Below, one piece after another: positions 1 to 56,773 of a DNA stretch of 56,773 bases (its first letter is position 1; each line of letters starts with the position of its first letter). The notes below the pieces were generated by a model. That model made no database searches. It was not told the DNA's origin and saw only the letters and a list, made by a program, of their open reading frames with translations. Both the position numbers and the translations under genes were made by a program. Source of the DNA: Burkholderiales bacterium (lineage in GTDB: Bacteria > Pseudomonadota > Gammaproteobacteria > Burkholderiales > Burkholderiaceae_C); NCBI GenBank assembly GCA_017302655.1, contig JAFLDE010000020.1, positions 1 through 56,773 on the forward strand, read 5' to 3'.

Positions 1-104
1 TTTGCGGTAACGCCAGTAATACGACGTGGGAGCAATTTGCCCTGATCATTGATGAACCGTTGGAGCAGTTCTACGTTTTTGTAGTCCACAAATTCAATTT
101 CCCC
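1..104 (-). other. rpsR: Fragment of ribosomal protein S18 gene (rpsR-like) joined in frame
   Basis: Read on the minus strand, the last ~34 codons give [15 protein letters not shown], then [13 protein letters not shown]. This is the conserved core of bacterial ribosomal protein S18 (DYK, LL.RF, GK.LPRRITG). The match is to non-proteobacterial S18 types; betaproteobacterial S18 has GKITPARLTG at this place. Hand counting gives 43 G+C in bases 1-100 and 76 in bases 101-200. The S18 N-terminus and stop are absent. It is most simply an assembly join to another organism's DNA. The donor phylum cannot be fixed from 34 residues. Confidence 0.7.
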
Positions 105-713
105 GAGGCGGCCATCGAGCGTGCGTTGCTGGGCGTCACGGCGTTCGTGCCAGAGCGCCACGTCGCCGCGCGGCCATTGCGCGGCCTGCTGACGGGCCAG
201 GCGTTCGGCGGCAGGCGGCAGGTCGCCCAGCCAGCGTTCCAGCGCCTTCACGTAGCGGTCGCCGCGCTCCTCGTCGTCGCGCTCGTCCTCGCGTTCGCGC
301 CATTCCTGCTGCTTCTCGGCCATGCGCCGGCGCAGCTGCGCCCACTGCATCTCGCTCAGGCTGGCCAGCAGCGGTTGCGCCAGCGGCGCGGCGCGCTCCA
401 GGCAGCGGCGCAGCGAGTCATCGAAGCTCTTCTCCAGGCGCAGCAGCTCGGGCTCGTCCAGGCCACCGTCGAGCAGGGCGTCGGCCTGCGCGAGCAAGGC
501 CTGCCATTGCGCCAGTTCTTCGCGGCGGTGCCAGTCGTGCCATTGGCGCAGGGCGGTGTCGAGCTGGCGGCCTTGCGCGCGGTCGAAATCGAGGTAGCCG
601 CCGATCCACCAGTTCATGAGCCGGGGCAGCTGCCCGTAGCCCAGGGTCAGGCTGGAGCAGCCGGCCACCAGCAGGCAGGCAAGGAAAGCGCTCAGGCGAG
701 GCAGCGAAGGCAT
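1..713 (-). CDS. DUF6279-type lipoprotein, partial, fused at its C-terminus to an S18 fragment
   Basis: The start is the ATG whose complement is at 711-713. It opens a signal peptide ending in a lipobox (LVAGC, Cys19), so the product should be an outer-membrane or periplasmic lipoprotein. Next comes [20 protein letters not shown] and a helical, Arg/Glu-rich body ending near [15 protein letters not shown]. This is the pattern of the DUF6279 lipoprotein family, whose function is unknown to me. From about residue 203 the frame continues without a stop, off the window edge, into sequence that reads as ribosomal protein S18 and is much AT-richer. The family usually runs nearer 280-290 residues, so the genuine C-terminus is missing. 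I believe the lipoprotein part is real and the last ~34 codons are foreign. Confidence 0.75.
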
Positions 714-729
714 GAGCGCATGGTGCCAA

Positions 730-764
730 GAAAAAAAGCCCGACGCCGCAGGCGGGTCGGGCTT
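730..764 (-). terminator. Rho-independent terminator behind the small membrane protein gene
   Basis: A 9-bp perfect stem (736-744 with 756-764, AAGCCCGAC/GTCGGGCTT) closes an 11-nt loop. On the minus strand it is followed by a run of seven T (731-737). It lies downstream of the small gene ending at 806 and just upstream of the lipoprotein start, so it should separate these two minus-strand genes. Confidence 0.8.
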
Positions 765-805
765 GAAACAGGTGCCGGGGAGACACCTGGGAGGACGATG
801 GGTCG

Positions 806-1042
806 TCAGACAGTGGACGCGGCGCGGCGCGTGACCACCACCGTGGGCAGGCGCACCGGCTCGGCGGCTTGCTTGGCGCTCACCACCACCAGGGGCAGGC
901 GCACCACTTCGGCGGCGGGCTCGGCGCGGATGTCGGCCAGCGCCGCGGCGCTGGCGATGGCCAGGCCAGCCATGATCACCGGGCTCAGCCAGTTGTTCAG
1001 CAGGTCGATGGCGGGGCGGGGGTTGTAGCGGCGGGTGGTCAT
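806..1042 (-). CDS. Small single-span protein with duplicated LPxVVV motif
   Basis: A 78-residue protein of unknown function. The start at 1042 is chosen over the ATG at 1096 because AAGGAAG lies just upstream. Residues ~18-36 form one hydrophobic segment ([17 protein letters not shown]), so it is probably membrane-anchored or secreted. The tail carries a duplicated unit, [13 protein letters not shown] then [12 protein letters not shown], each copy preceded by a short Ala/Glu/Pro stretch. The PTVVVT core resembles the TonB box seen near the N-terminus of TonB-dependent receptors, but no receptor is present and that resemblance is only suggestive. A clear terminator follows the stop. Confidence 0.6.
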
Positions 1043-1189
1043 GGCGGCTTCCTTCTTGCTGTGCATTTCCGTTGTCGATGGCTGCACTGTGCGCAAAGCC
1101 GTTCCAAGCTGCGAGCGCCGTGCGATGAGCAGCGACCTCGGGCGATGAACTGCTGGAAAACCCGGATGGCTGGATCGGGCCTTCGCCGA

Positions 1190-1633
1190 TCAAGCCGCCG
1201 CAGGCAGGTCGAGCAGCGCGGTGCCGAAGGGGTTGTCGACCTGGATGCGCCACTGTCCGTCGGCGCCACGCGCCAGCACGTCGGCCGAGCGGGCGCGCAT
1301 CTGCATGGGGCTGCCATCCGGCGCCTGGCCGTGCATCTCCCAGTCGCTGTGCAGCAGAGCGATGTCGGCCGTGGCGGCGTGCACATGGGCGTGCAGGCGC
1401 ATGCGGGGCTTCAGGGCCATGAGCGACTGCAGCGCCGGCCGGATCTGCGCCTTGCCGTGCAGAAGTTGGCCAGGTTCGGGGTAGAAGGCGGCGTCATCGG
1501 CGTAGAGCGCCATGGCGGCATCGAGGTCGCCGCTTTCGAAGGCGCACATCAGCGCGGCCACGGTGGCTAGGAGCCTGTCGGGCTTTGGCACGGGCGCGCG
1601 TTGGGCGTGCAAGGGGGCTGAGACAAGGCGCAA
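1190..1633 (-). CDS. NTF2-like (SnoaL/DUF4440-type) protein
   Basis: The body reads as a nuclear transport factor 2-like fold: [20 protein letters not shown], then [19 protein letters not shown], and [20 protein letters not shown]. Proteins of this family bind small molecules or act as dimeric enzymes; nothing here fixes a substrate. The longest frame starts at 1633, but its first ~21 codons lie inside the palindromic element at 1569-1838. The native start may therefore have been replaced, or may be the internal GTG at 1561 or ATG at 1549. No Shine-Dalgarno sequence decides between them. Confidence 0.7.
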
Positions 1634-1838
1634 AGCACAGCCGTGGCGCGGGCCACGGCGAGCATTTGCAACGCCGGATCAGCCCCCTTGCACGCCCAAC
1701 CCTGTGGGCCGGGGCGACTTGCGGGGCCATGCGTTGTTGCCGGCTCGTAGTTGGCACTCATCCAACGCCTCGCCGGCGTCTAGCCTGGCCCCGCAACTCG
1801 CCCCGGCGCGCGCCCGTGCCAAAGCCCGACAGGCTCCT
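1569..1838. repeat. 270-bp MITE-like element with perfect 32-bp terminal inverted repeats
   Basis: Bases 1569-1600 are the exact reverse complement of 1807-1838 (32 of 32). Inside are a second perfect 21-bp inverted repeat (1601-1621 with 1679-1699), a central 7-bp hairpin (1640-1646 with 1653-1659, 6-nt loop), and a third near-perfect pair (1712-1729 with 1786-1803). It fills the gap between the WYL regulator and the NTF2-like gene and supplies the first codons of the latter. No transposase is encoded and no target duplication was obvious. It shares a 52-bp core with the repeat at 11145-11306. Confidence 0.8.
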
Positions 1839-1921
1839 GGGGCGGGGTGATCGGTGGGGAGGATGGGTTGAGGCATGTCAGCGCTCCGGTGAAGGGAGCC
1901 GCATGCTCGACTGCCGGGCTG

Positions 1922-2620
1922 TCAGGAACTGTCAGCAGTGCGTTGCATGCCATCCAGCCACTCCCGCATCAGCTGCTGGCGCGGGCGCGGGTAGCGCTCG
2001 GGCAGAGGCTCGCAAGCACGCATGCGATCCAGACGGAAGTGTCGACATTCGGTGCGCAGCTCGCACCAGGCGCTGAGCACGCGGCTTTGCTCGAAGAAGC
2101 CCAGCGCGAAGGGCCAGACGATGCGCTCGCTGAGCTGACCTTGGGCGTCGCGGTAGTCCAGGCGCAGCTTGCGCTGCGCGCGGATGGCGCGGCGTATCTG
2201 CGGCAGCAGCGCGGGGTCGAAAGCCAGCGGCTGGCCGTCGGGCACGAGCAGCGGGTTGTGGTCCAGCTCGAAGCGTTCGGCCGCCGGCAGCACGGCGCGC
2301 ACCTTGGCCAGCGCATGTCGCGCGGCCTCGGCGAGCGGCGGGTCGCCGCTGCGCTCGATGACCCACTGGGTGCCCAGCGCCAGGGCTTCCAATTCCTCGA
2401 CGCTGAACATCAGCGGCGGCAGGCTGTGACCGGGCCGCAGCACGTAGCCGATGCCGGCCTCACCTTCGATGCGCGCCCCCTGCTGCTGCAGTGTGGCGAT
2501 GTCGCGGTAGAGGGTGCGCAGGCTGATGCCAAGGTCCTGCGCCAGTTGGGCGCCCTGCACCGGTGTTCGGCGCAGCCGCAAACGTTCCAGCAGGGTGAGC
2601 AGCCGCTCGGCCCTACTCAC
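1922..2620 (-). CDS. YafY-type HTH/WYL-domain transcriptional regulator
   Basis: A 232-residue regulator. The N-terminus (residues ~1-55) is a winged HTH containing AQDLGISLRTLYRDIATLQQ, the YafY/DeoR-like recognition helix. Residues ~135-215 form a WYL-type ligand-sensing domain (RKLRLDYRDAQGQLSERIVWPFALG). WYL proteins sense nucleotides or other small ligands, but nothing here shows which. Its start overlaps the 3' end of cphA by 8 bp on the same strand, so it is probably co-transcribed with the cyanophycin synthetases and may respond to nitrogen or polymer status. That role is inferred from position only. Confidence 0.85.
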   Translation of the reverse strand: MSRAERLLTLLERLRLRRTPVQGAQLAQDLGISLRTLYRDIATLQQQGARIEGEAGIGYVLRPGHSLPPLMFSVEELEALALGTQWVIERSGDPPLAEAARHALAKVRAVLPAAERFELDHNPLLVPDGQPLAFDPALLPQIRRAIRAQRKLRLDYRDAQGQLSERIVWPFALGFFEQSRVLSAWCELRTECRHFRLDRMRACEPLPERYPRPRQQLMREWLDGMQRTADSS

Positions 2621-5192
2621 TACAGCGCTTGCGCAGGTGCGCCAGGGCCTCCTCGACCTGATCGACCAGCACCAGGCACAGGTCGCCCGCCTTCACGGAG
2701 GCGAGCGCGTGGTCGATGGCGACGAACTCGCCGCGGATCTCGTCCACCTGCTTCGTGCGCGTGGCGCCTTCCAGGCCCTTGCGCAGCAGGGCCACCACCT
2801 CGCCGTCCTCGCGGCCACGCTGGCAGGCGTCCTGGTAGAGCACGACGTGGTCGAAGGCGGCGCCGAGGATCTGCGTCTGTTCGGTGATGTCCTGGTCGCG
2901 CCGGTCCCCGGCACCGCTGATGACGACCACGCGCTGCTGGGCCGGGATGGCGTCGACGGCGCTGACCAGCGCACGCATGGCGTCGGGGTTGTGACCGTAG
3001 TCGGCGATCACCGTGGCGCCCTGGAAGTCCATGACGTTGAAGCGGCCGGGAGCGTTGTCGGCGTCGGCATTGAAGCTGGCCAGGCCACGGCGGATGACGT
3101 CGGTGGGCAGGCCCACCGCCCAGGCGGCACCCACGGCGGCCATGACGTTCTCGACCTGGAAGCCGAGCTGGCCGTTGCGGGTGATGGGCACGTCGCGCAG
3201 CGGGATGCTCTCGCGCGCATTGCCCTCCACGGCGACGATGTGGCCGTCGTCCACGAACACGCAGCGGCGACCCTGGGCGCGGTGTGTGGCCATCAGCGGC
3301 AGGTGGCGGTCGGCGCAGAAGAAGATGACCCCGCCCGGGCACTGGCCGGCCATGCCCGCCACCAGGGGGTCGGCGGCGTTGAGCACGGCAAAGCCGCCCG
3401 GCGCCACGTTCTGCACGATGACGCTCTTCACGCGCTGGATGTCCTCCACCGTCTCCAGGTAGTTCAGGCCCAGGTGGTCGCCGGTGCCGATGTTGGTGAC
3501 GACGGCGACCTGGCAGCGGTCGAAGCCCAGGCCCTCGCGGAGGATGCCGCCGCGCGCGCACTCCAGCACCGCCGCCTCCACGTCCGGGTGCATGAGCACA
3601 TTGCGCGCGCTCTTCGGCCCCGAGCAGTCGCCGCTGTCAATCTGCCGGCCGTCGACGTAGACGCCGTCGGTGTTGGTCATGCCGGTGGTCAAGCCGGCGG
3701 TGGTGAGCAGATGGGTGATGAGCCGTGTCACCGTGGTCTTGCCGTTCACGCCGGTCACGGCCACGAGGGGAATGCGGCCGTCGGCGTTCTTGTCTGGGCC
3801 GTAAATGCTCTTGATGATGGCCTTGCCGACGTTGCGGCCCTTGCCGTACGAGGGCGAGAGGTGCATGCGCAGGCCGGGCGCCGCGTTCACCTCGACGATG
3901 CCGCCGCTCACCTCTTCGAGGGGACGCATCACCGTCTCGGCCACCACGTCCACACCGCAGACATGCAGACCGACGATCTGCGCGGCTGCGATGGCGCGCT
4001 GGGCCACCTCGGGGTGCACGTCGTCGGTGACGTCGGTGGCGCTGCCCCCGGTGCTGAGGTTGGCGTTGTTGCGCAGGATGACGCGCTGACCCTTGGCCGG
4101 CACGCTGTCCGGCGCAAGGCCTTGCTGCTTGAGGCGCTCGAGGGCGATGTCGTCCAGGCGCATCTTGGTCAGCGAGGTGGCGTGGCCGTCCCCGCGGTTC
4201 GGGTCCTTGTTGACCTCGTCCACCAGCTGGCGCACGGTGGAGACGCCGTCGCCGCTGACCTGCGGCGGGTCGCGCCGCGCGGCGGCCACCAGCTGGTTGC
4301 CGACGACCAGCAGGCGGAAGTCGGAGCCCGGCAGGTACTTCTCGACGAGCACGGTGCCGATCTCCTCGGCGGCCTTGTAGGCCAGCTCGAAGTGCTCGCG
4401 CGTGCTCACGTTCACCGTCACGCCCTTGCCCTGGTTGCCGTCCAACGGCTTGACGACCACGGGCAGGCCGATCTCCTCGGTGGCGGCCAGCCAGCCCTCG
4501 TCCACGTCGTCCACGGGCCGGCCGAAGGGCACGGGCACGCCGGCCGACTGCAGCAGACGCTTGGAGAGGTCCTTGTCCTGCGCGATCGATTCGCTCACGG
4601 CGCTGGTGGCGTCCACTTCGGCGGCCCAGATGCGGCGCTGCTTCACGCCCCAGCCGAACTGCACCAGCGAGCCTTGCGTGAGACGGCGGTAAGGCACGCC
4701 GCGCGCCACGGCAGCGTTGACGATGCTGCCGGTGGAGGGGCCCAGGCGCACGTCCTCGTCAATCTCGCGCAGCCGCTTGACGACCGCTTCCGCATCCCAG
4801 TCGCTGCGGCCGTCCAGTGCGGCGCGGATCAGCTTCTCGGCTTCCTGGCAGGCCAGGCGACCGACGTCTTCCTCGCTGTACTCGACCACCACCTGGTAGT
4901 GGCCGGGCGTGCCGGTGCGGTGGGTGTGGCTGTAGGTGACCGGACAGCCGGCCTGCGCCTGCAGCGCCAGCGCGGCCTGCTCCAGCACATGGGCAAGGCT
5001 GACCGGCATGCGCTGCACGGTGGCGGGGCGCAGCGCGCCGATCTTCGGGAAGAGCGCGCGCAGACGTTGCTCGAAACCGTCGAGTTGCTGGATGTCGCGT
5101 TCGTTGGCCTCGCAGACGCAGACGGTCTCGATGGCGGTATGGCGACTCCAGAGGTTCGGGCCACGCAGGGCACGCAGGCGTTGGACGTCCAT
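2613..5192 (-). CDS. cphA: Cyanophycin synthetase
   Basis: An 859-residue cytoplasmic enzyme that builds cyanophycin (a poly-Asp backbone with Arg side chains) from Asp, Arg and ATP. It has an N-terminal domain beginning LRALRGPNLWSRHTAIE, an ATP-grasp domain at about residues 210-470 (VKPLDGNQGKGV; IVEVNAAPGLRMH), and a Mur-ligase-like C-terminal domain with an intact P-loop TGVNGKTT (G481-T487). The Mur region ends with DYGHNPDAMRALV and ISGAGDRRDQD, both typical of CphA. Length matches the family (about 860-900). It lies 11 bp after the shorter paralogue and overlaps the WYL regulator, giving a three-gene minus-strand unit. Confidence 0.97.
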   Translation of the reverse strand: MDVQRLRALRGPNLWSRHTAIETVCVCEANERDIQQLDGFEQRLRALFPKIGALRPATVQRMPVSLAHVLEQAALALQAQAGCPVTYSHTHRTGTPGHYQVVVEYSEEDVGRLACQEAEKLIRAALDGRSDWDAEAVVKRLREIDEDVRLGPSTGSIVNAAVARGVPYRRLTQGSLVQFGWGVKQRRIWAAEVDATSAVSESIAQDKDLSKRLLQSAGVPVPFGRPVDDVDEGWLAATEEIGLPVVVKPLDGNQGKGVTVNVSTREHFELAYKAAEEIGTVLVEKYLPGSDFRLLVVGNQLVAAARRDPPQVSGDGVSTVRQLVDEVNKDPNRGDGHATSLTKMRLDDIALERLKQQGLAPDSVPAKGQRVILRNNANLSTGGSATDVTDDVHPEVAQRAIAAAQIVGLHVCGVDVVAETVMRPLEEVSGGIVEVNAAPGLRMHLSPSYGKGRNVGKAIIKSIYGPDKNADGRIPLVAVTGVNGKTTVTRLITHLLTTAGLTTGMTNTDGVYVDGRQIDSGDCSGPKSARNVLMHPDVEAAVLECARGGILREGLGFDRCQVAVVTNIGTGDHLGLNYLETVEDIQRVKSVIVQNVAPGGFAVLNAADPLVAGMAGQCPGGVIFFCADRHLPLMATHRAQGRRCVFVDDGHIVAVEGNARESIPLRDVPITRNGQLGFQVENVMAAVGAAWAVGLPTDVIRRGLASFNADADNAPGRFNVMDFQGATVIADYGHNPDAMRALVSAVDAIPAQQRVVVISGAGDRRDQDITEQTQILGAAFDHVVLYQDACQRGREDGEVVALLRKGLEGATRTKQVDEIRGEFVAIDHALASVKAGDLCLVLVDQVEEALAHLRKRCSE

Positions 5193-47919: not shown

Positions 47920-49686
47920 GTGAGCACAAACCAGGGCGCCGAGCAGCGCTTGTTGATGGAAGAGCGGGTCCGGGTCGGCGTTGACCAGGGAAAGCGCATC
48001 CATGTCGCCCAGTTCATCACCGACCTGGCACTGAGCGCCTTGCTGCTGCGCATGGATGCCGGCGAAGTGCTTTGGGCCTACCTGCCCTGGCAGGTGCTGG
48101 CAGTGCACGGCCGCGTGCAGCTCCTGCTGTGGCTGCGCCGCCGCCCGGATGTGTCACTGCGTCGCCTTTACTGGCTGATGTCGGGCTCGGGCGTGCTGGT
48201 GGCCTTGGGCGTCATCATTCTGTTGGTGGGCAGCTTCCAGGTCGCGTCACCGCCGCTTCACCTGCTCATGACCATGGTGCTGTGCGGCATGGCCGCAGGA
48301 GCGGTGACCACAGCGGCGGGCGAGGTGTTCGGTTATGCGGCTTTCTCAACAGTGCTGGCCGCGGGCAACACCTTCTGCTGGCTGGTCTGGGGGGGTGAGC
48401 TGGGCTGGGTACCGGCAGTGCTGGTGCCCGTGCTGCTGGTGTTGCTGGTGGGTTACGTGCACGAACAGGGGCGCGCGCAGCTTCATCAAGTGCGCCTGCG
48501 CGTGCAACTGGACCAAGCCCTGCAGGCCAGCCACCAAGCCAACGAGGCGCGCACGCGATTCTTCGCCGCCGCCAGCCACGACCTGCGCCAACCGCTCACG
48601 GCGCTGGGCTATGGCGTCGCCACCGTCGAGGCTTTGGCACAGCAACGGCATGACGCGCTGCTGACCGACGTGGCGCAGGGCCTGCGACGTTCGCTGGCCG
48701 AGAGCCAGGCCTTGCTCAACAGCCTGCTCGAGATCTCGCAGCTCGACGCCGGTGCCATCCGCCCGCAGTGGCAGTCGCTCGACCTCGAAGCGCTGATTGA
48801 CGAGTTGCTGGATTCCTTTGCGGCCGAGGCGGTGCAACGCGGTTTGGCGCTGCGAAGAGAGCTCGATGGCGCGGGCCCCTGGTGGGTGCGCAGCGACCCC
48901 GCCCTGTTGCGCCGTGTCCTGCAGAACCTACTGGGCAATGCGCTGAAGTTCACCCCGCAAGGGCAGGTGTGCGTGGCGCTGCGTCGGGACGGCGACACGC
49001 TGACCCTCGGGGTTCGCGATAGCGGCACGGGCATCCCGCCCGAGTTGCAAGAGCGTGTCTTCGAGGCCTTTTTCCAAGTCGGCAACCCGGCGCGCAATCG
49101 TCAGCTCGGCCTGGGTCTGGGTCTGGCCATCGTGCGCCGTTTGCTTGACCTTCTGGGCCACCCTCTGCAATTGGTCAGCGATGCCGGCCGAGGCAGCGTG
49201 TTTCAACTCCAGCTGCCCTCCGCCACGCCTCGGCTCGAAGCATCGCCGGCCAAGGCCGCACGCCTGCCCCCCGCCGTTGGGTCGCGGCGCCTGCTGGTGG
49301 TCGACGACGAAGCGCCCATCCGCGACGCGCTGGCGGCCTTGCTGTCCACCTTGGGCTGGCAGGTGCGCACGGCAGCGGGCGAGGCCGAGGCGCTGGCGCA
49401 ACTGGCGGATGGATGGCACGCGGAGGCCCTGGTGCTGGACCTGCGCCTGGGCGATGGTGTCAGCGGCTTGGACTTGCTCGAACGCTTGCGTGCGCAAGGC
49501 TGCATGGCTCCGGCTTGGCTGGTGACGGGCGACACCGCACCCGAGCGCATCCGGCAAGCGCAGCAGGCTGGTCTCCCTGTTCACTACAAACCTGTGGACG
49601 GACTGGCCCTGGCCGCCGAGATTCATGCCAGGCTGGCTTCGAGCGACCGGCCCACCCCCACAAATGACGGGCAGGCCTTTCCCTGA
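47920..49686 (+). CDS. Hybrid sensor histidine kinase with C-terminal receiver
   Basis: 588 residues from a GTG at 47920. Residues ~25-185 contain about six membrane spans, forming a membrane sensor without a recognisable periplasmic domain. The kinase core has the phosphoacceptor His220 in AASHDLRQPLTALGYG (HDLRQPL form), Asn340 in NLLGNALKFT, and GTGIPPELQERVFEAFFQ and GLGLGLAIVRRLLDLLG. The receiver contains LLVVDDEAPIRDAL and phosphoacceptor Asp507 in LVLDLRLGDGVSGLDLLE. Its partner is probably the NarL-type regulator just upstream. Kinases with the HDLRQPL box often pair with such regulators in Burkholderiales. Confidence 0.92.
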   Translation: MSTNQGAEQRLLMEERVRVGVDQGKRIHVAQFITDLALSALLLRMDAGEVLWAYLPWQVLAVHGRVQLLLWLRRRPDVSLRRLYWLMSGSGVLVALGVIILLVGSFQVASPPLHLLMTMVLCGMAAGAVTTAAGEVFGYAAFSTVLAAGNTFCWLVWGGELGWVPAVLVPVLLVLLVGYVHEQGRAQLHQVRLRVQLDQALQASHQANEARTRFFAAASHDLRQPLTALGYGVATVEALAQQRHDALLTDVAQGLRRSLAESQALLNSLLEISQLDAGAIRPQWQSLDLEALIDELLDSFAAEAVQRGLALRRELDGAGPWWVRSDPALLRRVLQNLLGNALKFTPQGQVCVALRRDGDTLTLGVRDSGTGIPPELQERVFEAFFQVGNPARNRQLGLGLGLAIVRRLLDLLGHPLQLVSDAGRGSVFQLQLPSATPRLEASPAKAARLPPAVGSRRLLVVDDEAPIRDALAALLSTLGWQVRTAAGEAEALAQLADGWHAEALVLDLRLGDGVSGLDLLERLRAQGCMAPAWLVTGDTAPERIRQAQQAGLPVHYKPVDGLALAAEIHARLASSDRPTPTNDGQAFP

Positions 49687-49758
49687 GGCGCGAGTGGCCC
49701 TGCAGGAATAGGCTGAGGGATGGCCGCGGCTGTCGCCGCTTGGCAAGGGGGTTTGACG

Positions 49759-51933
49759 ATGACCCACGGAGTTCGAGGGATGGCAAGGGGCGCCCGCGTC
49801 CTCTTGCTGCTGGCGCTGCCCCTGCTGGCCGCCGCGTCGGGCGACCCGCTTGCCGAAGTGCGCGCGCTCATCGAGTCGGGCCGCTTGCACCAGGCGTCGG
49901 CACGCCTGCAGGCGCTGACTTCCGGTCCGTTGGCCCAAGGGGCTGAACAGCAGGCCCTGCGCGCACGCCTTACGCTGCAACTGGGGCGGCTTGACGAAGC
50001 CGAGGCCGCGCTGCTCGAAGCAGAACGTCTGGGCGCTGGCGGCAGCTTGCGCGCGCAGCGAGCCGAGCTTGCGCAGCGCCGCGGTCAAGGCGAGTTGGCG
50101 CGCACGCAGTGGCAGGCGCTCCAGCAGGATGACTCGGTGCCGCTGCTCGAACGCCAGCGCGCCAACCTGGAGCTGGCGGCGCTGGAGGAGCCAGGCCCAG
50201 GCCTTGCGCGACTGCGCGCGACCGAGCCGGGCCTGAGCGACGCCGCCCTGCTTTTGCGCTTGGCCGAACTGGCCCAAGCGGCACCGCTTGCTGACCCGCA
50301 GCTCGCCGAGCGCGCACTGCGGCGTGTCCGCGGCACATCGCTGCAGCGCGCCCAGGCCCTGCAGGCCCAAGCCGCATTGGTGGAGGCGAGCGGGCCTGCA
50401 CGCCGGGAGGAAGCCCTGCGGCTGAACCGCGAGGCGCTGGCCTTGGTGGACACGCTGCCCGATGCCCAGCAGGCTGAGCTGCGCGTATTGCTCGACTGGC
50501 GGGCCGCGCGCCTGGAGCCAGGTACGCCGTCCGCGCTCGCCTCCTTGCAACGCGCGGTGGCCCAGTTGGAAACCGTGCGCGACGACTGGCCGCTCAACGA
50601 CGAGACCGGTCGATCCACGCATCAAAGCCTGTTCCAACCGCTCTACCTGCAGCTGGCCGACGCGCTGCTGCGCCGTGCCGATGGAGCGCAGGGCGAGGAG
50701 CGCCAGGCTTGGCTGCGCCGCACGCGCGACGCGCTCGAGCAGCTCTACCAGGCCGAGCTGCAGGACTATCTGGGCGATCGATGCGAGGTCGATGCGGTGA
50801 AGGGAGAGGGCGCCAGCAGTGCCCTGCCGGCAGGCAGCGCCGCCATCTACCCACTGCTGCTGGCCGACCGCGTGGCGCTCCTGGTGGAAGACGCGAAAGG
50901 CTTGGACAGCTTCGCCAGTGCCGCCAGCCCGCAGGCCGTGCACGAGGCCGCCATGGTGCTGGCCAAGCGCCTTCGGGACCGTGCGCCCGGGTATTTGAGC
51001 GCTGCGCGCAGCCTGCATGACGCACTGGTGCAGCCCATCGCCTCCTGGCTGGCAGCGCGCGGCACACAGACTTTGGTCTGGGTCAATGACGGCCCGTTGC
51101 GCCTCGTGCCCATGGCTGCGCTCTACGACGGCGAGCGGCATCTGCTGGATCGATACCAGACCGCCAATGTGCTGGGCATGAGCATGACCAATACGCAAAC
51201 CGCTCGCATGGAGCGCGTGCAGGCCCTGGTGGCAGGCGCCGGCCGCTTCGGTGCCGTGGTGGATCGTTTGGCCAGCGAGACCTGGGCCCAGCCCTTGCGG
51301 CGCCAGCTGCTGGGCGCAGCGGCCGAGGCCGAGCCCGGCGCCACCCGCTCCTTGCAGGCGCAGCGCATGCGCGAGGCCTTGGAACTGCCCGGCGTGGCCG
51401 AGGAGGTCAAGACCCTGCAGAGACTGCTGCCCGGCCCAGTGCTGCAGGATGCCCGCTTCACCGTGCAGGGATTCAGCGGCCAGGTGCAAAAGGGCGGCCA
51501 CCGTGTGGTGCACATCGCCTCGCACGGTGTGTTCGGCGGCTCGGCGGCGACCAGCTTCCTGATGGCCTATGACGACCTGCTCACCCTGCCGAATCTTCAG
51601 AACCTGCTGCAGTCCGAATCGACGCGTCGGCAGCCGATCGAGCTGCTCACGCTGTCGGCCTGCCAGACCGCCGAGGGCAACGAGCGTGCGCCGCTGGGCC
51701 TCTCCGGCGCGGCGCTGAAGGCGCGCGCGCGCAGTGTGCTGGGCACGCTGTGGCCGGTGGACGACGCCGCCACCGTGCAACTCATGTCGGCCTTCTACGC
51801 CGGATGGACGGCGCGGCCCGAGCTCGGCAAGGCGGCTGCGCTGCGCGAGGCGCAGCGAACGTTGCTGCGGCAGGCCGACACCCGGCATCCCTACTACTGG
51901 GCGCCCTTCGCGCTGATTGGGAACTGGCAATGA
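49759..51933 (+). CDS. Exported CHAT-domain (caspase-like) protein
   Basis: 724 residues from the ATG at 49759; an ATG at 49780 and the in-frame ATG at 49720 are alternatives. The N-terminus (RVLLLLALPLLAAASG) is a signal peptide, so this CHAT protein is probably periplasmic, unlike the cytosolic TPR-CHAT proteases of CRISPR systems. Residues ~25-330 are helical with TPR-like repeats (ALIESGRLHQASARLQAL, LTLQLGRLDEAEAALLEAER). The C-terminal CHAT domain has the His/Cys dyad as His589 in HIASHGVF and Cys635 in TLSACQTAEG, both intact. It ends LGTLWPVDDAATVQLMSAFY and [11 protein letters not shown], typical of the family. The start of the exoprotein gene overlaps its stop. Confidence 0.9.
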   Translation: MTHGVRGMARGARVLLLLALPLLAAASGDPLAEVRALIESGRLHQASARLQALTSGPLAQGAEQQALRARLTLQLGRLDEAEAALLEAERLGAGGSLRAQRAELAQRRGQGELARTQWQALQQDDSVPLLERQRANLELAALEEPGPGLARLRATEPGLSDAALLLRLAELAQAAPLADPQLAERALRRVRGTSLQRAQALQAQAALVEASGPARREEALRLNREALALVDTLPDAQQAELRVLLDWRAARLEPGTPSALASLQRAVAQLETVRDDWPLNDETGRSTHQSLFQPLYLQLADALLRRADGAQGEERQAWLRRTRDALEQLYQAELQDYLGDRCEVDAVKGEGASSALPAGSAAIYPLLLADRVALLVEDAKGLDSFASAASPQAVHEAAMVLAKRLRDRAPGYLSAARSLHDALVQPIASWLAARGTQTLVWVNDGPLRLVPMAALYDGERHLLDRYQTANVLGMSMTNTQTARMERVQALVAGAGRFGAVVDRLASETWAQPLRRQLLGAAAEAEPGATRSLQAQRMREALELPGVAEEVKTLQRLLPGPVLQDARFTVQGFSGQVQKGGHRVVHIASHGVFGGSAATSFLMAYDDLLTLPNLQNLLQSESTRRQPIELLTLSACQTAEGNERAPLGLSGAALKARARSVLGTLWPVDDAATVQLMSAFYAGWTARPELGKAAALREAQRTLLRQADTRHPYYWAPFALIGNWQ

Positions 51934-54900
51934 AGCAAATTCGTCGCATCGCCCCTCGGCTGAGCCCTCTCGCCCTCCTGCTGGCCGCGGCGCTGGCGCA
52001 GGCACAGCAGAACAACCCCCCACCACCGCGACCCAGCAGCATCGTGGTGGATGGCAGCACCCTGGGCACTCAAGCCTTCGCACTGCAAGGCCCGGTCTAC
52101 TCGATTCCACAGGCATTGGGCCGCCTCAGCGGCGCCAACCTGTTCCACAGCTTCAAGCGCTTCGGGCTGGAATCCGGCGAGTCCGCCACGTTCAGCACGC
52201 AGACCGCCGGCATCGCCCACGTCATCAGCCGTGTCACCGGGGGTGAGGTATCGCAGATCAACGGCCGCATCAGCCTGCAGGCGGCGGCGGGTACGCCGGC
52301 CTTCTTTCTCATCAATCCAGCTGGCGTGGTGTTTGGCGAAGGCGCCAGCATCGACGTGCCGGGCGCCTTCCACGTCAGCACTGCGCCGCGTCTGCGCCTG
52401 GGCGGTGGCGAGAGCTTCGATACCTCCCAGGCCGACAGCAGCTTCAGCGCCGCTGCGCCCGAGGCTTTCGGCTTTCTCGGGGGCGCGCGGGCCGCGGCGC
52501 TCCAGTTGAACGGAACGGCGCAGTTGGTGGGCGCCACCGCCCAGGCCTTGAGCCTGAGTGCCGGCGACCTGCTCCTGCAGGGCGACCGCGTGTCCGCCAG
52601 CGGCGGACTGCGGCTGGCGGCTGCCGGCGCAGCAGCGGTAGACGTGCCGCTGGTCGGGGACTTGCCGGCTGCACTCGATGGCGGAATCCGCCTGACCGGT
52701 GGCGTGCGCGTGGGGGTGGTCACGCCGGGTGCCGCCGAAGCCGGTGCGCTGCTGCTGGGCGCGGGCGACCTGCAGCTTGACGGCGCCGCCGCATTGGTCA
52801 GCCAGACCCGCCCGGAAAGCAGCGGCACAGGTGGTGCCATCGACATCCGCCTGGGCCGTGACCTGCGCCTGTCGCAGGACGCCCGCATCGACACCGTGGC
52901 CACCGGCATCGGCCCCGGCGGCGCGCTCAATGTGCGGGCGCGCGATGCGGTGCTGGAGAGTGGGGCCTATGTGCAGACTCTGACCCTGGGAGCAGGCGCT
53001 GGAGGCGCGCTCGACCTGCAGCTCAGTGGCACGCTGGACGCCAGCGGTGGAGCGGGTCTGTACGGCGCCAGCTTTGGCCCTGGCGCCAGCGGAGCCCTCC
53101 GTGCGCAAGCCGTGCACATCCTGCTCAGCAGCGGGGCTTATGCCGAAGTCAACACCGACAGCGGTGGCGCCGGCAGCAGCCTGAGCCTGCTGGCAGACGG
53201 CGATCTGTGGCTCACCGGCGGGGCCTTCGTGAAGAACTTCGTCGATGGCAGTGGGCAGGGCGGGGATACCTGGCTGCGCGCCGGGGGCCAGATGCTGCTG
53301 CTCGGCGACGCCGGCGTCACCCAGACGGCGGCCGGCAGCGGCGCCAGCGGACGTCTGCGTCTGCAGGCCGGCGACTTGTTCATCGAATCCAGCCGGGTGA
53401 CGCACAGCAGCGACCGCTTCGGCGGCCTGACCGGGGCCACCGAGCTGCTCGCCGATGGCCTGCTCTACATGGACGCTGCACAACTGCTGGCGACCGTGCA
53501 ATCGGGCCAGGGTGGGGTGCTGCTGTTGCAGGGCAGCGAGCTGGTGCTGCGCAACGGCTCCCTGGTGCTGAACAGCGCGCAGGGTGAAGGCGCGCGCGCC
53601 GGCGACGTGCGCCTGTTGGCGGCCGGTCAGTTGGAGCTCAGTGGCAGCACCATCAGCAACATCGGCGTCACCGGCGGGCAAGCCGGCGATGTGCTGTTGC
53701 AGGGGCAAAGCCTGCTGGTGACCGATGCCAGCCAACTGCTCGCTCTGGGCGACCGGCGCGACGGCTTGGACGGTCGCTCTGGCAACCTCACGCTGCGCGC
53801 TGCGGGCACGCTCCGGGTGGAGAGCGACAGCTCGCTGAGTGCGAACACCGCCGGCCGTTTCGATGCCGGGTCGATCCGCCTGGAAGGCGGTACGGTGATC
53901 CTGAACCAGGCCACGCTCAACAGCGCCGCACTGGCCGACAGCACCGGGCATGCCGGTACCGTGGCTTTGGTGGCCACCGGCCTGTTGGATGTCCAGGGCA
54001 GCGGCATCAGCAGCGCCAGCTTCGGCACCGGTAACGCGGGTTTGCTGGATTTCAGTGGCGAAGACGTCCGCATCGGGCCGGGCAATTTCATCAACACGGC
54101 CACCGCCCCGGACGGCGGCCAGGGGGGACTGATCCGCGTGGCGGCCCGGCGCGACCTGGCCATCGCAGGCAGCGACACCCGGCTGACCAGCAGCACCTTC
54201 TCGGATCGCGGGGCGGCCGGCACGCTCGAACTCAGCGCGGGGCGCGACCTGCTGGTCGAGGGCAGCGTGCAAATGAACAGCTTCACCCAAGGCGCCGAGC
54301 GGGCCGGTGCCTTGAACCTGCAGGCCGGGCGCGACCTGACGGTGCGTGGCGCGTCCTTGCTGAGTTCGTTCAGCACCGGCAGCGGCGCTGCAGGGCAGCT
54401 GAACTTCCAGGCGGGGCGCGAGCTGCTGCTGACTGCGGGCGCGAACCTGTCCACCAACACCCTGGCCGACGGCTTGGGCGGCGCCATCACCTTGCGCGCG
54501 CCCACCGTGCGTGTGGAAGGCGACGCCACGGTCAGCTCCAGCACGCTGGGTGCCACGGGGAATGGTGATGCGGGCAGCGTGCTGCTGCAGGCCGACAGCC
54601 GCCTGCTGCTGGATCGCGCCAACGTGAATAGCCTGACCGGCGGCGCGGGTGACGCTGGCAGCCTGCGGCTGAGCGCGCCGGAGATTTTCATCAGCAACCG
54701 CTCGCAGCTGTTGGCCAGCGTGTTCCAGGGCGCCAGCGGCGAGGGCGGGGCGGTGCGCGTGCAGGCTGGTCGCTCGCTCACCGTGCAGGGGCAGAGTGTG
54801 ATCGACAGCAGCAGCTACGGCAGCGGCGCCGCCGGCGGCGTGTTGCTGGAGTCGGGTGGCAGCCTGGACTTGCTCGGCACCTCGGTGCTGAGCAGCCTGA

Positions 54901-56288
54901 CGACCGGTGCAGCGCCGGCTGGCACCGTGCAAGTGCAGGCTGCCGGGCGCTTGCAGATCGCCGGCGGCAGTCGGGTGGAAGCCAGCACCCTGGGCAGCGG
55001 GCCGGCCGGCAGCCTGCGTGCACAGGGCAGCGAGGTGCTGATCGACGGCGCCAGCCTGAACTCGTCCACTCTCGGGCCGGGCGCTGCCGGGCAGATCGAC
55101 GTGGTGGCTCAGCAAGCCCTGTTGATGCGCAACCAGGCCACCGTCACCGCGGTGGCCGGCGAGGACTCTGGCGGCCAGACCGGCAACGTCAACCTGCGTG
55201 CGGGCACCCTGCTGCGCCTGGAGAGCCGCAGCCAGGCCAGCACGGCCAACGGCGCCACCGTGGCGAACCCCGGGGCTTTGCGGCCCACGGTGCTGAGCCT
55301 GGTCGCGCCGGTGATTGAGTTGGACGGCGCCATCGTCAACGCCACCGCCACCGGCAACGCCAACGCCAGTCGCATCGACATCCAGGCCGGCGAGCGCTTG
55401 GACCTGAAAGACAGCAATGTGGCGACCGACGCCAACCGCGGCAACGGCGGCCCGGTGCGCGTGCAGGCCGGGCGGGGCATCCGGCTGAAGGACAGTGCGG
55501 TGACCACCTCGGTGAGTGGCGACCCAGGTGGCAATGGGGGCGACATTGAGGTGCAGACCGAGCTGCTGTTGCTCGACAACGGTTTCATCCAAGCCAACAC
55601 GGCGGCACGCGGCGCGAGTGGGGGCGATGTGCGCATCGACGTCGGGGCCGTGGTGGCGGCCGGCAATCGGCTGATGGTGGGCGGCGACCAGCCCTTGCGC
55701 TTCAACCGTGAGGGCCCGCGCATCAACGTGATCCAGGCAGCCGCGCCCGATGGCGTGGGCGGCCGGGTGGCGGTGAGCGGACAGGTCGACCTGGCCGGCA
55801 GCCTGGCGCTATTGGAGCGGCAACTGTTCGATCCCGGTGGTCTGGGGCGCAGCCCCTGCGCACGCACCGCCATGGTCGGCGCGGGGCGCGAGAACGAGGC
55901 CGATTCCAGCAACGGCGCGGAACTCTACGTCGTCACCGGCCAATCGCCGCGCCAGCTCGACCGCAACATGAGCACCGTCGGCCGCGTCGTGCAGGGCGTC
56001 GAATTGCTCAGCAGCCTGCCGCGCGGCACGGGACCGCTGGGTTTCTACGAAAAGGCGGAACAGCGCGTCGCTATCCGCAGCATCCGCCTCGCCGCCGACC
56101 TCAAGCCGGCCGAGCGCCTGAACCTGCAGGTGCTGCGCACCGACACCCCGCTGTTCACCGAACTGGTCGAAGCCCGCCGCAACCGCCGCGACGATTTCTA
56201 CAAGCGCCCGGCCGGTCACATCGACCTGTGCAACGTGCCGCTGCCGGTGCGGGAAGCGCCGCCGCCGGCGGCCAAGCCGAAGCGCTGA
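51930..56288 (+). CDS. TpsA-type filamentous haemagglutinin-like exoprotein, C-terminus replaced by a cyclophilin fragment
   Basis: 1452 codons, start overlapping the CHAT gene stop (ATGA). Signal peptide ([17 protein letters not shown]), then the TPS secretion domain: [57 protein letters not shown] and [15 protein letters not shown]. Residues ~250-1300 are a long beta-helix of short Gly/Ser/Leu repeats (A.G.L.L.AGRDL.V.G style). The expected exoprotein end ([10 protein letters not shown]) appears near residue 1307. From about residue 1310 (nt ~55,862) the frame continues as a cyclophilin C-terminal half. I judge the first ~1310 residues real and the tail foreign. The TpsB transporter usually found next to such genes is not in the window. 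Confidence 0.85.
55862..56288 (+). other. C-terminal half of a cyclophilin-type peptidyl-prolyl isomerase, joined in frame
   Basis: From ~55,862 the frame reads [20 protein letters not shown], then [60 protein letters not shown] and [21 protein letters not shown] recognise this as the end of a cyclophilin-type PPIase family well represented in Xanthomonadaceae. It is unlike the Gly/Ser repeat sequence before it, and the N-terminal half of the isomerase is missing. The two genes that follow (a small unknown protein and a metallophosphoesterase) probably belong to the same donor DNA. Confidence 0.75.
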
Positions 56289-56293
56289 TCGCC

Positions 56294-56608
56294 ATGCGAG
56301 TCCTCGAGGTCGGGCCGAAGCCCGGTCGTGTCTGGGAGCTGGAAGTGTCCGGGCTTCTCAGCCGTTGGCGCCTCGTCGCCAGGTTGTTGCGGATTCCCGA
56401 CGTCCGCATCGTCGACCGACCCGGCGCATTCTCTTGGCTCCGCGAGGGCGTGTTCTGCGTCTTCGAGTACCAGGGCAGGCGCTTCGTCGCGGAAAAATTC
56501 GAAGGCGATGCATTCCAGATCCGCCCTGAAAGACGCGGCTGCATTCCTGAGCTGCAGGCCCTGGGGATGCAGCTCATCGCTCGATCTGCACTCCGATACG
56601 CCACCTGA
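56294..56608 (+). CDS. Small hypothetical protein
   Basis: 104 residues from the ATG at 56294, five bases after the cyclophilin stop. It is soluble and beta-rich (WELEVSGLLSRWRLVARLLR, FCVFEYQGRRFVAEKFEGDA). No family recognised. GC over 56,401-56,580 is about 63% by hand count, below the ~70% of most of the window, in keeping with this end deriving from a different genome than the rest. Confidence 0.55.
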   Translation: MRVLEVGPKPGRVWELEVSGLLSRWRLVARLLRIPDVRIVDRPGAFSWLREGVFCVFEYQGRRFVAEKFEGDAFQIRPERRGCIPELQALGMQLIARSALRYAT

Positions 56609-56662
56609 CCCTTCGACCAAGCGCCAATCGCGGCGCCCGCACATCGGGGCTAGCATCCGGGG

Positions 56663-56773
56663 ATGCGCATCGCCCTGCTCGCCGATCTGCACGCCAACCG
56701 CGAGGCCGGCGAGGCCTGTCTTGCCAGGCTCCGCCGCCTCGGTTTCGATCGGGCGATCGTGCTCGGCGACATC
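56663..56773 (+). CDS. Metallophosphoesterase, 5' end only
   Basis: The ATG at 56663 opens RIALLADLHANREAGEAC and continues to AIVLGDI at the window edge (37 codons). The D.H..... and GD motifs are the first two metal-binding blocks of calcineurin-like phosphoesterases of the YfcE/ApaH-like kind. The window ends before the GNH motif. It may form a unit with the small gene upstream. Confidence 0.75.
   Translation, partial: MRIALLADLHANREAGEACLARLRRLGFDRAIVLGDI

Follow-up and report, generated by a model that had tools for sequence, protein, structure and literature searches.

Contigs that combine DNA of mixed origin are a known class of assembly error (PMC10978663, PMC3100316). PMC3100316 reports that simulated metagenome assemblies contain inter-species chimeric contigs, and it singles out contig chimericity as the chief factor behind mis-annotation. 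The stretch of DNA analyzed here, called the window below, is the entire contig C113 (56,773 bases) of draft genome G000. Like those contigs in databases, it holds sequences of two organisms. We conclude that its right end is almost certainly an assembly (or library) chimera, in which Lysobacteraceae-type DNA sits on a host contig, and not a fusion protein. Each of the two genes that meet there has known relatives. The first resembles the TpsA exoproteins of two-partner secretion systems (PF05860) in having a TPS domain; unlike them, it is cut before its C-terminus and runs into foreign DNA instead. The second resembles the Lysobacteraceae cyclophilin-type PPIase (relatives L006 to L008), with 93% (L006) and 94% (L007) identity over the C-terminal part present in the window; unlike that enzyme, it has no N-terminal half and is a gene fragment. 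The features are collected in Table 1.

Table 1. Features at the two edges of the window and their basis
Feature	Coordinates	Strand	Basis
Left-edge chimera: ribosomal protein S18 fragment joined in frame to DUF6279 protein	3..98	-	PF01084, PF19795
CHAT-domain protein gene directly 5' of exoprotein	49720..51933	+	PF12770, E 1.3e-51
TpsA-like exoprotein, 3'-truncated: TPS domain, glycine-rich repetitive body	51930..55871	+	PF05860; comparison with relatives
Chimeric junction, apparently blunt	55871..55872		10-letter words; alignment of eight loci around junction
C-terminal part of Lysobacteraceae-type cyclophilin (foreign)	55872..56288	+	Amino acid and DNA identity; tree
104-aa ORF, family not assigned, in foreign tail	56294..56608	+	No Pfam match at E<=1
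Metallophosphoesterase, first 37 codons, cut by contig end (foreign)	56663..56773	+	PF12850, E 3.2e-5

At the right edge, a single open frame (51930-56288, plus strand) encodes 1452 residues that begin as a TPS-domain exoprotein and pass into the C-terminal part of a cyclophilin at about residue 1315. On this joint frame, Pfam places positions 90-156 of the 159-position PF00160 profile at residues 1315-1384, weakly (E 0.08). The tail alone (55860-56285) matches positions 91-156 with E 0.0031 and 18.2 bits, under the curated cut-off of 21.7, and its best-scoring solved chain is PDB 5ex1 (residues 157-278, 2.8e-14). No complete PF00160 domain above the cut-off is present in the cyclophilin part of the window. 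The open frame, the Pfam match and the match to 5ex1 all bear out the claim of an earlier note that an exoprotein frame runs here into a cyclophilin C-terminal half. That note had set the start of the region at 55840, about 30 bases too early.

We place the join at about 55871/55872 because this is where Lysobacteraceae-type similarity sets in and where the TpsA relatives run on. Similarity of the tail DNA to loci of the genome collection begins at 55857-55878 (among the matches listed, 60 of 90), and 10-letter words common to the window and the six nearest loci compared first appear at 55871. The residues at the junction are Cys-Ala-Arg-Thr-Ala, followed by the cyclophilin residues Met-Val-Gly, and by eye at most 1 to 2 shared bases are recognizable. 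A k-mer misjoin through a long shared word was considered and set aside: no such word is recognizable at the junction in the DNA of relatives, which stand in for the true parents. A scan of 55000-56773 for repeats returned one imperfect 21-nt pair, away from the join, and no inverted repeats. A random join keeps the reading frame with a chance of one in three.

Where does the tail come from? A query of its 142 residues confirmed 343 relatives in the genome collection, of which the best 80 were kept as loci. Protein identity to the nearest loci is 93% (L006) and 94% (L007), with 88% at the DNA level. The ten best of these 80 each carry a Lysobacteraceae, Lysobacterales, Lysobacter or Luteimonas title; a few lower relatives have other titles, such as an Undibacterium MAG (L077) and Dokdonella (L067). 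We compared DNA 55300-56773 with 11 genomes, six reached through the cyclophilin loci and five of the host genus. The cyclophilin tail is 85 to 88% identical in all six of the former versus 66 to 71% in all five of the latter. We built a tree from the tail, 7 host-genus copies and 45 of the 80 collection loci chosen by blastp order, 53 rows in all. It places the tail on the 46-row Lysobacteraceae-type side, adjoining L006, L007 and L008 (SH-aLRT 90), and puts the 7 host-genus copies, G000's own included, across the root from it (SH-aLRT 99). The earlier note associated this type of cyclophilin with Xanthomonadaceae; by similarity and tree, the tail is Lysobacteraceae-type DNA.

The host lineage has a cyclophilin of its own in all six host-genus genomes, G000 among them, 44 to 58% identical to the tail. 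G000's copy (44%) lies on contig C112, whose start cuts its N-terminus. All 87 ORFs of relatives have the N-terminal half of the cyclophilin; sought in the window, this half gave no convincing match (best E 0.26). When G000 was searched with the L006 locus (5.1 kb), the matches were the window tail (two matches), the host cyclophilin and two short weak ones. No donor genome of the tail was found, the best DNA identity being 88%, and this is a point against an assembly chimera.

The small gene and the metallophosphoesterase that the earlier note described after the cyclophilin are both there (Table 1). The phosphoesterase start scores 24.4 bits against PF12850, under the cut-off of 27, and 11 of the 80 loci (best 80 of 343) have a gene that matches it at 70 to 92% identity. 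The cyclophilin stop and the phosphoesterase start are 77 to 171 nt apart in those 11 loci and 374 nt apart in the window, where the 104-aa ORF lies between them. That the order of the two genes recurs in only 11 of 80 loci, with a shorter gap, is a second point against an assembly chimera. The 104-aa ORF had no convincing homologue in the best 80 of 343 cyclophilin loci (best tblastn E 0.60).

Composition agrees with the change of lineage. We scored segments with a 5-mer (fourth-order Markov) model of host versus Lysobacteraceae-type DNA, using held-out segments for reference. The last 902 bases of the window score as Lysobacteraceae-like. Among 272 held-out host segments, a single one reaches their value; among 60 held-out Lysobacteraceae-type segments, 24 do not exceed it. 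The score shifts at the junction and is host-like before it. The tail region has the highest score among 2204 segments, as the right end of the window has among 131 contig ends. The compositional comparison of the tail with the rest, which the earlier note had proposed, sides with Lysobacteraceae, although by itself it lacks specificity: stretches of C11, C17 and C51 reach nearly the same score, and the DNA at the right end of C51 belongs to the host genus.

C51 was considered as further Lysobacteraceae contamination and rejected, its last 1.4 kb matching 4 of 5 host-genus genomes at 77 to 84%. The rest of C51 has short weak matches only, in host-genus and Lysobacteraceae-type groups alike. 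Its composition over 1-3600 (L174) is unlike the host for several kilobases before the host-genus DNA of the last 1.4 kb, and this region is perhaps an integrated element.

On the other side of the junction, the TPS domain is intact (PF05860 at residues 67-228, E 3.6e-26, 93 bits against a cut-off of 33.5). Upstream, the start of tpsA and the end of the CHAT-domain gene share 4 bases; the CHAT-domain gene is itself preceded by a hybrid histidine kinase-response regulator gene (47920-49686). TpsA matches 8 of 299 family genomes, G000 included, leaving seven relatives for comparison. After the matching Cys, all seven continue with a conserved end in which G(R/Q)G comes after GSSL or GSSF. The window TpsA is without this C-terminal GSSL...GRGGL motif and has cyclophilin sequence in its place. 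A 7-row profile of the missing C-terminus, run against G000, recovered the truncated end of the window TpsA (E 0.029) and five further matches of E 0.66 to 2.9; the C-terminus was thus not found elsewhere in G000, another point against an assembly chimera.

What should have followed TpsA? TpsB lies next to it on the same strand in 5 of 7 relatives (L097, L098, L099, L100 and L102), at gaps estimated at about 5 to 250 nt; the other two (L101 and L103) have no TpsB within the 1.5 kb of sequence examined at their TpsA loci. The window contig has no ShlB match. G000 has two TpsB matches, on C59 and C183. The one on C59 adjoins its own TPS-domain gene, without a match to the relatives' loci. The one on C183 (L287, 49-1599; ShlB family) carries POTRA and ShlB domains, is 45 to 55% identical to the relatives' TpsB and lies in a frame that is open to base 1, with its first start codon at base 49. 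Given that five of the seven relatives have TpsB directly after TpsA, and that C183 starts with a TpsB of this kind, C183 is probably the true right-hand neighbor of the window, and its TpsB the missing partner of the window TpsA. The TpsA C-terminus was probably lost between the two contigs, or cut. The tail lineage, the TpsA truncation and the probable continuation on C183 together support the view of the earlier note that this is a chimeric contig edge rather than a fusion protein.

The left edge of the window had also been called an in-frame chimera, and correctly so. A minus-strand frame (3-1253) encodes a DUF6279 protein (PF19795, 7.5e-15) whose last 32 residues are ribosomal protein S18 (PF01084, 3.4e-12; profile positions 2-33 of 52), and a full-length S18 match lies elsewhere in G000, on C24. 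GC steps down 100 nt from this edge. As to a donor of the S18 piece, window positions 1-400 gave matches of 31 to 90 nt in 5 of 7 locus-derived genomes, none of them over S18.

Such steps recur across the assembly, which comprises 203 contigs and 4.43 Mb (completeness 99.96, contamination 0.99). The idea that its contigs form a set numbered strictly by length was dropped: 21 contigs agreed with it, but the lengths of others broke the order. We compared 171 of the 406 G000 ends (on 101 pieces chosen by contig number) with 6264 interior positions, scoring GC drops only and taking the interior 0.1% as threshold. Eleven of the 171 ends lie above it (0.17 expected), with steps 80 to 135 nt from the edge; the left end of the window is among them, and without the window, whose edges prompted the test, the count is 10 of 169. 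In a draft of the same genus (G005), none of 74 ends passed against 1418 interior positions, and 1 of 74 did at a 1% threshold (Fisher p 0.037 for G000 versus G005). These end pieces may be foreign tails about as long as a read. At 902 nt, the right tail of the window exceeds the 80 to 135 nt of those steps; it is GC-matched to the host and absent from the 11 (likelihood ratio 0.16). Because it matches host GC, the GC-step test is blind to it, and the case for the right tail therefore rests on similarity and truncation.

Odd ends are a minority. Over 100 nt, 131 ends taken together showed no deficit of host-likeness relative to interiors (the median end lay at the 78th percentile, one-sided p 1.0), with 13 of the 131 under the 1st percentile. 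The eleven terminal pieces and the right tail of the window did not recur, as 25-nt words, in the other G000 stretches examined. At the end of C6 (L140), the last 120 nt or so pass from a frame that looks UvrA-like by eye into low-GC sequence that includes a 29-nt repeat, CRISPR-like, in two exact copies 65 nt apart. Further stepped ends are on C55, C53, C12, C7, C11, C90, C39, C63 and C150; the GC drops are 0.25 to 0.41 at the ends of L178, L144, L141, L165 and L272 and at the starts of L176, L143, L134 and L197. The ends of C22 and C29 and the starts of C39 and C137 are atypical over hundreds of bases and have no step; these may be mobile or foreign contigs.

Could the joint frame nevertheless be real DNA? 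Lysobacteraceae DNA that recently entered tpsA of this strain by illegitimate insertion or by transfer would have produced a genuine in-frame fusion gene, probably non-functional, and the frame is indeed open across the junction, with a tail free of stops. However, the junction has no repeat, and the frames at the right edge match no mobile-element family in Pfam. The foreign piece is also the last 902 bases of the contig, the opposite end of the same contig is chimeric too, GC drops abruptly at 11 of 171 ends of the assembly, and the TpsB that opens C183 fits an ordinary tpsA-tpsB locus. We consider such an insertion very improbable. The corresponding picture of the organism, one strain in which a short Lysobacteraceae segment inside tpsA gives a truncated exoprotein with a new C-terminal tail, is to the same degree hard to credit. 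An evolved TpsA-cyclophilin fusion, with the PPIase domain aiding exoprotein folding outside the cell, finds agreement in the continuous frame and the intact TPS domain only, and we regard it as the least probable reading of all, with next to no chance of being right. Its cyclophilin part is without profile positions 1-89 of 159, the stretch that in cyclophilin A holds the catalytic Arg, Phe and Gln, and so should not be an active isomerase. The tail is, moreover, 93 to 94% identical to a free-standing enzyme of another lineage. The conserved fusion in related genomes that the earlier note had set against its own reading is absent: none of the seven TpsA relatives carries a cyclophilin part, and TpsA matches none of the 80 cyclophilin loci (best 80 of 343).

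A further reading is bin contamination alone, with a correct join and a whole contig that comes from an organism other than the rest of the genome. The division of the assembly into 203 contigs and its estimated contamination of 0.99% leave room for this. Against it, the mean composition of the window (-0.032) is that of the other G000 contigs (-0.015 to -0.037 in 20 of them), the window TpsA has a same-genus relative in G004, and the change of lineage is confined to the tail, at one point. We think bin contamination alone very improbable, more so than an insertion.

An assembly (or library) chimera accounts for these observations together. Lineage changes at one point within the contig by similarity, tree and composition; both junction genes are truncated relative to their relatives (TpsA in 7 of 7 comparisons, the cyclophilin in 87 of 87 ORFs); the foreign piece is at a contig end; and the error recurs, in the second chimera at the left edge and in the excess of GC drops at other ends, if these too are foreign. 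The artificial step would have been a chimeric fragment, a chimeric read or a misjoin. In the intact host locus, the TpsA gene would run to its own C-terminus and be followed by the TpsB gene. The host contig would have ended inside the TpsA gene and been extended by 902 bases of a co-occurring Lysobacteraceae-type bacterium; the join would keep the frame by chance, and gene callers would then print one 1452-aa "TpsA-cyclophilin." Because the junction is apparently blunt and the step distances are short and similar, contig ends may have been extended with chimeric reads or fragments. For the 902-nt right tail, this would require several overlapping reads of the foreign genome.

The joint product would not be expected to function as a unit, because its TpsA is without a C-terminus and its cyclophilin without the first half, where cyclophilin A has its catalytic residues. 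We see no biological novelty in the junction and do not claim the contig-end GC drops as an undescribed pattern. The present case differs from the chimeric contigs in the account that PMC3100316 gives of them in that the drops are set 80 to 135 nt in from the contig edge, at 11 of the 171 ends compared within a single assembly. Annotated as it stands, the contig would give rise to two spurious proteins, a 1452-aa "exoprotein-cyclophilin" and a "DUF6279-S18." Neither the completeness (99.96) nor the contamination score (0.99) of G000 reveals the GC drops at 11 of 171 ends, and in-frame joins at the contig ends of such genomes deserve distrust.
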